A stretch of 39,974 bases of DNA from contig MAGS01000088.1 in NCBI GenBank assembly GCA_001717005.1, positions 53,293 to 93,266 on the forward strand. Reading direction: 5' to 3'. The position numbers and the translations under genes were made by a program. Positions 14,743-36,565 of the stretch are shown here, piece by piece (the stretch's first letter is position 1; the number at the start of each line of letters is the position of its first letter). The notes below the pieces were generated by a model that worked only from the letters and a program-made list of their open reading frames with translations, ran no database searches and was not told the DNA's origin. The stretch comes from Candidatus Methanomethylicus mesodigestus (GTDB lineage: Archaea; Thermoproteota; Methanomethylicia; Methanomethylicales; Methanomethylicaceae).

Positions 14743-15720
14743 TTGGAGCAAAGCGAGGAGTTCGTGGTCAAGAGTGACGAGCGGTCTAGCCCCAACCATG
14801 GGTGGATGCCCTCGGAGCGCCCGATAAAGGAGTACTTCTCGACGGGCGTGATAAACCTGGACAAGCCGCCCGGGCCCAGCAGCCACGAGGTCGTGGCGTG
14901 GGTCAAGCGCCTCCTCGCGGTCGACAGGTCGGGGCACGGCGGGACCCTCGACCCGAAGGTCAGCGGCGTGCTGCCCGTTACGCTCGGGAGGGCCACCCGC
15001 ATAATCGCGTTCATGATGAGGTCTGGCAAGGAATACGTCTGCCTCATGGAGCTGCACCAGGAGGTCCCCAGGGAGCGCCTCATGGAGGTCATCAATGAGT
15101 TCGTGGGGCCGATCTACCAGCTCCCGCCAGTCAGGTCGGCGGTCAAGAGGGCCCTGCGCATACGGACCATCTACTCCATCGATATGATCGAGTCGAGCGG
15201 TAAGTTCGTCCTCATGCGGGTCAGCTGCGAGGCCGGGACATACATCCGGAAGCTCTGCCACGACATGGGCGAGGTTCTGGGCTGCGGCGCGCACATGCGG
15301 GAGCTCCGCAGGACGCGCGCCGGGCCGTTCAGCGAGACCAAGGGGATCCATACCCTCCACGAGCTGCTGGACGCGATCACCCTCTGGAAGACGTCAGGGG
15401 ACGAATCCCTGCTCCGGTCCGTGATAAGGCCCATCGAAGAGGCCATCCGCGCCTTCCCGAAGGTCGTCGTGAGGGACTCCGCGATCGACGCCTTCTGCCA
15501 CGGCGCTAACTTGGCGTCGCCCGGCCTGCTCAAGGTGAGCGCGTCCGTCAAGGCCGGCGACAGCGTCTGCGTCATGAGCGGCAAGGGCGAGCTCGTGGGG
15601 CTCGGCAAGGCCAGGATGTCGGCGCAGGAGATGGCCAAGGCCGATCACGGCATACTGGTCGACAACGAGCGGGTCGTGATGGAGCCAGGAACATACCCGA
15701 AGGGCTGGTCTGCAAAGTGA
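14743..15720 (+). CDS. cbf5: tRNA/rRNA pseudouridine synthase Cbf5 (TruB family)
   Basis: A 325-residue pseudouridine synthase, catalytic subunit of H/ACA ribonucleoproteins and also able to modify tRNA position 55. The catalytic motif GHGGTLDPKVSGVLPV (about residues 65-80) holds the active-site aspartate. The YIRKLCHDMG segment, and a C-terminal PUA domain (about residues 240-315, starting VVVRDSAIDAF), are present. In Crenarchaeota this gene often carries a BHB intron; here it is uninterrupted. The start is TTG 14743 with GGTGGA upstream. The stop overlaps the next gene. Confidence 0.93.
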   Translation: MEQSEEFVVKSDERSSPNHGWMPSERPIKEYFSTGVINLDKPPGPSSHEVVAWVKRLLAVDRSGHGGTLDPKVSGVLPVTLGRATRIIAFMMRSGKEYVCLMELHQEVPRERLMEVINEFVGPIYQLPPVRSAVKRALRIRTIYSIDMIESSGKFVLMRVSCEAGTYIRKLCHDMGEVLGCGAHMRELRRTRAGPFSETKGIHTLHELLDAITLWKTSGDESLLRSVIRPIEEAIRAFPKVVVRDSAIDAFCHGANLASPGLLKVSASVKAGDSVCVMSGKGELVGLGKARMSAQEMAKADHGILVDNERVVMEPGTYPKGWSAK

Positions 15721-33740: not shown

Positions 33741-34186
33741 TCGAGCGCACCTTCGTGATGATAAAGCCAGACTCCGTGGTCCGCGGCCTCATCGGCCGGG
33801 TCCTCCAGAGGCTGGAGGCGAAGGGCCTAAAGATCGTGGGCATGAGGATGATCCGCATGTCGCAGGAGCAGGCTGGAAAGCTCTATGCCGTGCACAATGA
33901 GAAGCCTTTCTTCGGGGACCTCGTCGGCTTCATACGCTCGGCTCCGGTGGTCGTTCTGGCGATCGAGGGCGAGAGCGCGGTGGCCGTGGTCAGGCGCGTT
34001 ATAGGCGCCACCGACTCAAAGGAGGCACAGCCGGGCACCATCCGCGGCGACTTCTCGTGCTCCAAGAGCATGAACGTGATCCACGCATCGGACTCTACCG
34101 AGAACGCGGCCAAGGAGCTCTCGATATTCTTCGCGCCTTCCGATCTTGTGGAATATTCGCGGCTCGACGCAAAGTGGGTATCCTGA
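33737..34186 (+). CDS. ndk: Nucleoside diphosphate kinase
   Basis: A 149-residue enzyme balancing nucleoside triphosphates by a phospho-histidine ping-pong mechanism. IERTFVMIKPDSVVRGLIG at the start and the active-site NVIHASDS (histidine about residue 115) are present, with TIRGDF just before. It starts with ATG 33737 overlapping the L24e stop (ATGA). Its position before infB is conserved in archaea and supplies GTP for the translation GTPases. Confidence 0.95.
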   Translation: MIERTFVMIKPDSVVRGLIGRVLQRLEAKGLKIVGMRMIRMSQEQAGKLYAVHNEKPFFGDLVGFIRSAPVVVLAIEGESAVAVVRRVIGATDSKEAQPGTIRGDFSCSKSMNVIHASDSTENAAKELSIFFAPSDLVEYSRLDAKWVS

Positions 34187-34253
34187 ACCCGCCCCGCTCC
34201 GGCGCTAGCCCGCGGGCCCGGGCCATCTCCCTCCTCCCCGCAGACAGACCTCT

Positions 34254-34266
34254 ACTTTTTATAAGG
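34254..34266 (+). promoter_or_regulatory. TATA box for infB
   Basis: CTTTTTATAAGGG lies about 40 bases before the infB ATG. The expected start near 34287 leaves a leader of only about 12 bases, so translation may be nearly leaderless. Confidence 0.6.
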
Positions 34267-34298
34267 GCGGGCGTTTTTCTAAAGCAAGGCGAATCACA

Positions 34299-36096
34299 AT
34301 GCCCGTCAGACAGCCCATAGTCACCGTGCTCGGTCATGTGGACGTCGGCAAGACGCTGCTGCTGGACAAGATAAGGGGTTCTGCAGTAATGTCGCGCGAG
34401 GTTGGGGCCATGGCTGCGCAGTGAGGCGCAGTGGCAAACCCAGCACATCGGCGCAAGCTTCCTGCCAATAAGCGTGATCGAGAACTACTGCAGCGCGATA
34501 GTCAAAGGCTTCCAGTCCAAGGTGAGCATCCCCGGGATACTCATCATAGACACCCCCGGCCACGAGGTCTTCTCCAACCTCAGGATGAGGGGCGGGTCGG
34601 TGTCTGACATATCGATCCTAGTCATAGACGCGATGGAGGGCGTGGAGAAGCAGACCGAGGAGTGCATCGAGATCCTCCGTTCGCGCAAGACACCGTTCAT
34701 AATCGCCGCGAACAAGATCGACAAGGTTGCCGGCTGGGTCCCGCACCCCGACAAATCGTTCCTAGATGCGCTGAAGCTCCAGACGCCCCTGGTCCAGAAC
34801 CGGGTCGACGAGAAGATATACCGCATCGTTGGCGGCATGGCAAGGTTCGGCTTCTCGTCAGACAGGTACGACAGGATACGCGACTTCACGAAGGCGGTGG
34901 CCATAATCCCCACCAGCGCCACGACCGGGGAGGGCATACCCGAGTTGCTGGCCCTCCTATGCGGGCTCGTGCAGCAGTACCTCGTCAAGCGCCTCGGCGT
35001 CACCGACGGCCCTGGCAGGGGCGTCATACTCGAGACGAAGGAGGAGCCCGGCCTGGGCAGCACAATAGACATGATACTCTACGACGGCGTGATCAACAAG
35101 GGCGACCGGATAGTCATCGGCAGCTTCGACGGCCCGCAGGTCGCCAAGATACGCGCGCTGCTGCTCCCGAAGCCTATGAACGACACCATGGACCCGGAGG
35201 ACAAGTTCCAGTCCGTGGAATCGGTCGCCGCCGCCGCCGGGGTGAAGATCGTCGCCCCGTCACTGGACAAAGCAGTGGCAGGCGCCCCGGTAATGGTTGC
35301 GAACGACGAGGAGTCGCTCCAGTCCGTCTCCAAGAAGATCAAGGAGGAGATGTCCGAACTCAGGTTCTCCTCCGACAACGAGGGCGTGATCGTGAAGGCC
35401 GACACTCTGGGCTCGCTCGAGGCGCTCGTGAAGTTCCTCAAGGATCAGGGCGTGCCGGTGAGGATCTCCGAGATCGGCCCGGTGAGCAGGCGGGACCTGA
35501 TAGAGGCGGGCATAGTGAAGCGCAGCAAGCCCGAGCTGGCGGCGGTCGTGGGCTTCAACATCAAGGTTACCCCCGAGGCCGAGGCAGAGGCTAAGGAGTG
35601 GGGGGTCCCCGTCTTCACCAGCAACGTGATCTATCATATCGTGGACGACTTCAAGGTCTGGTCCTCCAAGCTTGTGGACGACATGCGAAACCGCGAGTTC
35701 AGCTCCATAGTGAGGCCGGGGGAGATCAAGATACTGCCCGGCTGCATCTTCAGGAAGAACTCGCCTCCGATAGCCGGGGTGGAGGTTATGGGCGGGGCGA
35801 TCAAGCCGGGATACACCCTCATGAAGGCGAGCCTAGAGCACATTGGCAGCATCAAGGAGATCCAGGACAACGGGAAGAACCTCCAGGAGGCAAAGCGCGG
35901 CGACAAGATCGCGATCTCGCTCAAGTCCGACATAACGCTCGGCAGGCAGGTGGTGGAGGGCGAGCCCCTGTACGTATCGATTCCCGACAACGACATCTTC
36001 CTGCTGAAGGAGAAGTACAAGGATAAGCTGGGCGAGGACGAACTGGCGATCATCGAAAAGATCACCGCCATCAAGTGGAAGCGCTCATCGTTCTAA
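34299..36096 (+). CDS. infB: Translation initiation factor aIF5B, interrupted by a 25-nt BHB intron
   Basis: A GTPase that joins the ribosomal subunits and helps place initiator tRNA. Exon 1 is 34299-34412 (38 codons, [20 protein letters not shown] with the G1 motif). Exon 2 is 34438-36096. Joining them gives 590 residues, the usual archaeal length, with an unbroken switch I region, [12 protein letters not shown]. Other motifs: G3 DTPGHEVF, G4 ANKIDK, G5 SATTGEG, then beta-barrel domains and the C-terminal helix domain. Without splicing the frame stops at TGA 34422-34424 after 41 residues, and exon 2 has no credible start (an ATG at 34402 lies out of register with the family). G1 has Val where GHVDHGKT is usual. 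Confidence 0.88.
34413..34437 (+). other. Putative protein-coding BHB intron in infB, 25 nt
   Basis: The outer helix is GTTGGG (34401-34406) with CCCAGC (34439-34444). The central helix is GCCA (34407-34410) with TGGC (34432-34435). The 5' bulge is TGG (34411-34413) and the 3' bulge AAA (34436-34438). The inner helix is CTGCGC (34414-34419) with GCGCAG (34426-34431), loop AGTGAG. Cutting after the second base of each bulge, as the archaeal splicing endonuclease does, removes exactly 25 nt and joins ATG to ACC in phase 0. Confidence 0.88.
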
Positions 36097-36141
36097 ATTG
36101 GGCGCCGCCCACTTCCCCAACGCCCGACCGAGTGCGAAAGG

Positions 36142-36150
36142 GATATAAAC
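36142..36150 (+). promoter_or_regulatory. TATA box for the S6e-aIF2gamma operon
   Basis: GATATAAAC with an upstream GAAAGG BRE-like segment lies about 55 bases before the S6e start. Confidence 0.55.
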
Positions 36151-36199
36151 TAAAATAGGTTTTTGACTTCTATCAATAACAGTTACTGCGGTGATCTGA

Positions 36200-36565
36200 T
36201 TGGTAGAGTTCAAACTCGTATTATCGAACCCTGCAGATGGGAAATCGAAGACGATAACCGTAGCCGACGCGCAAGCCCAGTCATTCATAGGGCTCAGGAT
36301 CAAGGACGAATTCAACGCCGACGCATACGGGTTCCCCGGCCAGATGGCTGTAATCACGGGCGGGAGCGACAAGAGCGGAATCCCGCTTAGGGGGGACATC
36401 CCGGGCGGGTCAAAGAGGCGCATACTCCTTGCCGGCCCTCCGGGCTACAAACCAAAGAATGACGGCGAGCGGCAGAGGAAGCTCGTAAGGGGAAGCATGA
36501 TAACCGAAGACATAGTCCAGATAAACGCGACTCTGACCGTTGCACAAGCAGGGAAGAAGTCTTGA
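36200..36565 (+). CDS. rps6e: Ribosomal protein S6e (eS6)
   Basis: A 121-residue archaeal/eukaryotic small-subunit protein. FKLVLSNPADGKSKTITVAD, then FPGQMAVITGGSDKSGIPLR and the RRILLAGPPGYKP segment are diagnostic. It starts at TTG 36200, preceded by GCGGTGATCTGA. The stop overlaps the TTG start of aIF2-gamma. Confidence 0.94.
   Translation: MVEFKLVLSNPADGKSKTITVADAQAQSFIGLRIKDEFNADAYGFPGQMAVITGGSDKSGIPLRGDIPGGSKRRILLAGPPGYKPKNDGERQRKLVRGSMITEDIVQINATLTVAQAGKKS

Follow-up and report, generated by a model that had tools for sequence, protein, structure and literature searches.

A predicted bulge-helix-bulge intron in the coding sequence of the archaeal translation factor gene infB (aIF5B)

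How could aIF5B, a universal translation factor, be made from a gene whose reading frame is broken near its 5' end by 25 nucleotides? The gene lies in a 39,974-nt stretch of Candidatus Methanomethylicus mesodigestus DNA (the window), from a 1.43-Mb assembly of 88 contigs, the named organism closest to it being Ca. Methanomethylicus oleisabuli V3, at 89-90% protein identity. Translation from the ATG at 34299 loses its frame across 34413-34437 and resumes in another frame from 34438 up to the stop at 36096, so that the two exons lie in different frames, as an earlier note on this DNA had read them. Joined, they give a 590-aa protein that is an archaeal aIF5B from end to end (TIGR00491, 731.9 bits; NF003078, 791 bits), and its alignment to the solved aIF5B 5fg3 is gap-free at the exon junction. 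Exon 1 differs from the genes of relatives mainly at synonymous positions (17 synonymous and 0 nonsynonymous codon differences from L005), and is therefore translated as part of the protein. This pattern speaks against a pseudogene, or an N-terminally truncated gene beginning at an internal TTG (34402); the ORF list does include a 564-aa frame from that TTG, but the truncated form would be without the P-loop. Same-site insertions in many independent assemblies argue likewise against a pseudogene or an assembly error, and we give these explanations almost no credence.

The interrupting sequence, GCTGCGCAGTGAGGCGCAGTGGCAA (34413-34437), folds with its exonic flanks into two 3-nt bulges on opposite strands with a 4-bp helix between them, an arrangement kept across relatives. 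The BHB caller assigned 6 outer, 4 central and 6 inner pairs at this site, one pair of the outer helix being U.G (Table 1). Because the endonuclease rule places cleavage between the second and third nucleotides of each bulge (PMC2738675), the cuts can be predicted from structure alone; they fall at 34412|34413 and 34437|34438, exactly those that restore the frame and the segment REVGAM-TQHIGA, and joining after the second bulge nucleotide yields full-length aIF5B with a gap-free junction. The earlier note had described a canonical bulge-helix-bulge (BHB), rule-derived cuts agreeing to the base with those that restore GAM-TQHIGA, and a TGA in the intron loop that would limit the unspliced product to 41 residues; the geometry bears out each structural detail, the agreement of the cuts is exact, and the TGA lies at 34422-34424, inside the intron, so that the unspliced product is 41 aa long.

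Table 1. Positions in the window of the infB exons, the elements of the predicted intron, and cbf5
Feature	Position	Strand	Basis
cbf5, uninterrupted	14743..15720	+	TIGR00425 positions 2-321 in one frame; catalytic motif GHGGTLDP intact
infB (aIF5B) exon 1, 38 codons, ends REVGAM	34299..34412	+	Translation; differences from relatives mostly synonymous
infB exon 2, 552 codons and stop, begins TQHIGA	34438..36096	+	Translation; aIF5B family match of joined protein
Predicted BHB intron, 25 nt, in-frame TGA at 34422-34424	34413..34437	+	BHB geometry, frame restoration, covariation in relatives
Outer helix 5' arm, exonic, pairs with 34439-34444	34401..34406	+	97.9% of cells paired, 32 sequences
Central helix 5' arm, 4 bp, exonic, pairs with 34432-34435	34407..34410	+	99.2% of cells paired
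5' bulge UGG, predicted cut after 34412	34411..34413	+	BHB rule (PMC2738675) and frame restoration
Inner helix 5' arm, intronic, pairs with 34426-34431	34414..34419	+	97.2% of cells paired
6-nt loop AGUGAG with UGA stop inside	34420..34425	+	Sequence
Inner helix 3' arm	34426..34431	+	Covariation in relatives
Central helix 3' arm, intronic	34432..34435	+	Covariation in relatives
3' bulge AAA, predicted cut after 34437	34436..34438	+	BHB rule and frame restoration
Outer helix 3' arm, exonic	34439..34444	+	Covariation in relatives

The energy of the fold is by itself unremarkable (z -0.93), and in the minimum-energy structure the register moves by one base, giving a 3-bp central and a 7-bp inner helix that includes G34413.U34432. 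When the insert was shuffled, a central helix of 4 and an inner helix of at least 6 pairs arose at the exact site in 3 of 400,000 trials, and in a scan of 323 kb of the window genome the infB site ranked first by score among the BHBs that, once removed, restore a reading frame. It is the comparative data that make a chance origin untenable.

To survey relatives, we scanned 398 genomes of the phylum with a pattern running from the P-loop to TQHxG, which identified 31 with an insertion; two more (G059 and G080) were missed because their own P-loop is interrupted. The survey covered this one phylum and a few fetched DPANN genes, all sequences coming from MAG-type assemblies and the family codes (f1, f2 and so on) from the genome search. 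An infB insertion of 17-33 nt is found at the same site, GAM|TQH or GGM/GGI|TQH, in 33 genomes of nine families and three classes. Most members of the window's own family, f1, carry one of 22, 25 or 27 nt; lengths are 33 nt in f2, 29 and 31 nt in f3, 29-33 nt in f6 and 31 nt in f7, and, in the two other classes, 24 nt in f21, 22 nt in f33, 17 nt in f37, and 18 and 20 nt in f25.

Aligned under a model, these insertions are paired in 98.0% of cells, versus 79.8% after shuffling and 26-40% when the partners are slid, and they show 72 cells changed on both sides versus 18 shuffled and a covariation score of 0.459 versus 0.145; the alignment is itself fitted to the structure, and the raw sequences show the same pairing by eye. 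The inner-helix arms, for example, read CUGCGC/GCGCAG in the window, CCACGG/CUGUGG in L007 and CCAUGCCAGC/GCUGGCAUGG in L022, and all five inner pairs counted have changes on both sides. Compensation extends to the central helix in other classes, where an exonic change from CC to GG in f21 is matched by an intronic change from GG to CC. The 3-4-3 geometry is retained in nearly all insertions, the exceptions being a weak inner helix in G094 and, in a few f6 members, a single mismatched pair of the outer or the central helix. The comparison with related infB genes that the earlier note had proposed thus returned a same-site insertion of varied length with compensatory changes, cleanly missing from some relatives, and it makes the reality of the BHB intron, as a reading of sequences, near-certain.

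A hairpin with a stop codon at the gap is also a feature of known translational bypassing systems, such as T4 gene 60, and a ribosome that hopped over the hairpin, or shifted frame in a programmed manner, would need no RNA to be removed. The flanking codons do not match as take-off and landing sites, however (ATG before, ACC after), covariation is also seen where exon pairs with intron in the 4-bp central helix, and insertions of 17-33 nt, in all three frames, preserve the 3-4-3 geometry. We consider bypassing highly improbable.

The insertions also behave like introns with respect to the message that contains them. Their lengths fall in 0, 1 and 2 modulo 3, and each of the 20 distinct insertions of 3n length has an in-frame stop, which means that these cannot be tolerated peptide insertions. 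These stops are mostly TAA or TAG, formed by the last U of the central helix and the 3' bulge (L005-L031, L061, L063), while introns of this length class that end in CAA or CAG have an internal TAG instead, a pattern suggestive of selection to keep unspliced RNA from being read through. Only where the intron is present are the exonic helix arms fixed at their synonymous sites: GGG is used in 29/29 intron-bearing versus 4/20 intronless genes, and ACC in 27/29 versus 6/20, the intronless genes using all codons. An intein or other in-frame peptide insertion was ruled out by the frameshift and the TGA here and by the stops in those 20 insertions. A group I or II intron was also rejected, as Rfam gave no match to these or any other described intron in 34000-36400; at 25 nt, moreover, the insertion is too short for either.

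If the intron is removed as the structure predicts, the machinery should be encoded in the same genome, and we found two tRNA_int_endo (PF01974) genes, on contigs C24 and C86, together with RtcB. The 186-aa EndA subunit matches Aeropyrum pernix EndA (3p1z_B, 2.8e-48) and retains a His that is replaced by Ala in the 3ajv chain; the 178-aa subunit is without this His stretch, reading GAEIGKEPAKYLV there, and is probably structural. The pair points to a heteromeric (alpha-beta)2 enzyme, a form described as broad in specificity (PMC6379350). As an observation apart, the gene of RtcB, the presumed ligase (G000:C87:38984-41695; L077, L078), is split by about 1.4 kb within one 963-aa frame, which suggests an intein.

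We therefore propose, with high confidence, that 34413-34437 is an archaeal pre-mRNA BHB intron cut by the two-subunit EndA and joined by an RtcB-type ligase. The infB transcript would fold locally into the canonical BHB; the endonuclease, presumably an (alpha-beta)2 tetramer of catalytic alpha and structural beta subunits, would cut after the second nucleotide of each 3-nt bulge; the ligase would then join the exons and restore the switch I codons GAM|TQH, and the excised 25 nt would leave, perhaps as a circle. Removal by a tRNA-type splicing endonuclease was the central proposal of the earlier note, and both the relatives and the EndA and RtcB genes lend it support.

The distribution of the intron bears on its origin and loss. 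In G003, G005 and G006, which are nested within intron-bearing clades, the insertion is precisely absent, and G003 and G006 retain the BHB-compatible GGGGCCATG. On the aIF5B tree, presence and absence require 7 changes versus 20.4 when shuffled, at least 6 being forced by the starred branches, and the classes with the intron fall in more than one clade. On our reading the intron is old, common to several Methanomethylicia families, and was lost at least twice inside f1; by default we would view it as a near-neutral relic, retained as precise loss is rare. The scattered classes and the 7 changes, together with a second insertion site in the infB of f25, would also fit repeated independent insertion at a hot spot, which could explain the three classes without one old intron. 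The site is identical to the base, however, and many losses, two of them directly nested, would serve equally well; we lean against the hot spot while regarding it as quite possible. Repeated gain at one site is compatible with the splicing mechanism proposed above, the two not being mutually exclusive.

Might the intron be spliced and, beyond that, be maintained by selection for a regulatory role, with unspliced mRNA giving a dead-end peptide and aIF5B output following EndA and RtcB capacity? The in-frame stop in all introns of 3n length would keep unspliced RNA from being read through, and a role as negative regulator has been proposed for the cbf5 intron (PMC2738675). The repeated clean losses in one family count against it, as do the free turnover of inner helix and loop and the lack of any further conserved element, and we judge such a role quite unlikely.

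The second infB insertion, in G059 and G080 (L165 and L166, reverse strand), lies in the P-loop at VLGH|VDHGKT, besides the one at GGI|TQH. It measures 18 nt in G059 (TCCTTTTAAAGGGGCTAA) and 17 nt in G080 (TCCTTCTAAGGGGCTAG). Both inserts contain stops and pair in a BHB-like manner; that of G059 combines a 4-bp central helix and 4 inner pairs with a short 3-bp outer helix, and the frame jumps in G080 fit its two insertion lengths exactly. Were these insertions spliced out, each of the two genes would be an archaeal coding sequence interrupted by a pair of introns. Scans for other coding BHB introns in 323 kb of the window genome, 359 kb of G059 and 400 kb of G032 returned only noise beyond the infB intron of the window genome, a weak negative, since the infB introns already known in G032 and G059 were not among the filter's top matches. 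A nitrilase candidate (L141:11214) proved to be one open frame, and exon-anchored pattern matches in G388, G127 and G303 fell in unrelated genes.

Intein-like insertions were seen in similar places. The infB of G054 (L233) has an intein-like in-frame stretch before the aIF5B P-loop, ending in HN before TSLLDK, and the cbf5 of G040 (G040:C11:292017-294588) has an intein-like split within a 797-aa frame, so that RNA introns and inteins alike are drawn to these active-site regions.

In the literature searched, the one coding BHB intron described earlier is that of cbf5 pre-mRNA (Watanabe et al., 2002, as cited in PMC2738675). In the window cbf5 runs full length in one frame with its catalytic motif intact, as the earlier note had stated, and the present intron, with infB as its host, stands outside the cbf5 intron family, whose members lie at the catalytic Asp codon of cbf5. 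As a positive control, we applied the BHB rule to 20 relatives with a split or stop-containing cbf5 (L234-L253); in 20/20 it places a BHB or BHB-like intron of 13-35 nt in the catalytic Asp codon (phase 1, GTL(D)P). This intron occurs in Methanomethylicia families f3, f4, f6, f7 and f8 and in eleven sampled families elsewhere in the phylum, f3, f6 and f7 having both introns, f1 and f2 only that of infB, and f4 and f8 only that of cbf5. A 2009 study gave its range as Desulfurococcales and Sulfolobales (PMC2738675); since many class-mates of the window genome have it, the range read from these sequences is far wider, with the proviso that some sampled families may belong to those two orders.

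Three active-site positions (cbf5 Asp, infB switch I and infB P-loop) support the reading of protein-coding BHB introns as an old, multi-gene feature of the phylum. The fuller proposal, in which the infB intron is in addition kept to couple initiation to splicing capacity, is unlikely, the regulatory link from splicing capacity to translation being speculation. A statement from 2020 counted one archaeal BHB intron beyond tRNA and rRNA, in cbf5 mRNA (PMC7714728). Our search of the literature, mostly outside subscription papers, found no report of the infB intron and nothing relevant on introns of Methanomethylicus or Verstraetearchaeota; infB is a new host gene, in new lineages, for the archaeal pre-mRNA BHB intron, with cbf5 the sole earlier case in the literature searched. 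That a universal translation factor provides another widely conserved case, with losses and, in some species, two insertions in the one gene, suggests that coding sequences processed by tRNA-type splicing recur in archaeal gene structure, and automatic annotation may call aIF5B truncated or missing across a lineage of methanogens. The case also opens to testing the origin of such introns, their placement in active-site codons, the means of their precise loss and any regulatory effect they may have.

Compared with known systems, the infB intron is most like that of cbf5: both are short (16-44 nt in cbf5; PMC2738675) BHB introns in a protein-coding gene, situated in an active-site codon and cut (by prediction in infB) between the second and third nucleotides of the bulge; both have been lost in particular lineages and go with a hetero-oligomeric EndA. 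They differ in host, the infB intron lying in the switch I of aIF5B in Methanomethylicia and two other classes; in structure, canonical 3-4-3 in infB and usually unconventional in cbf5; in the second infB insertion of f25; and in that the infB intron is predicted from sequence rather than read from cDNA. Archaeal tRNA introns of the canonical hBHBh' type share its fold, cut rule and presumed enzymes, but the infB intron resides in an mRNA, with no tRNA body to aid recognition. In Haloferax volcanii, EndA acts on the mRNA BHB of HVO_1309 (PMC7714728), as we propose for infB, although that BHB lies in the 5' untranslated region and the one in infB inside the coding sequence.
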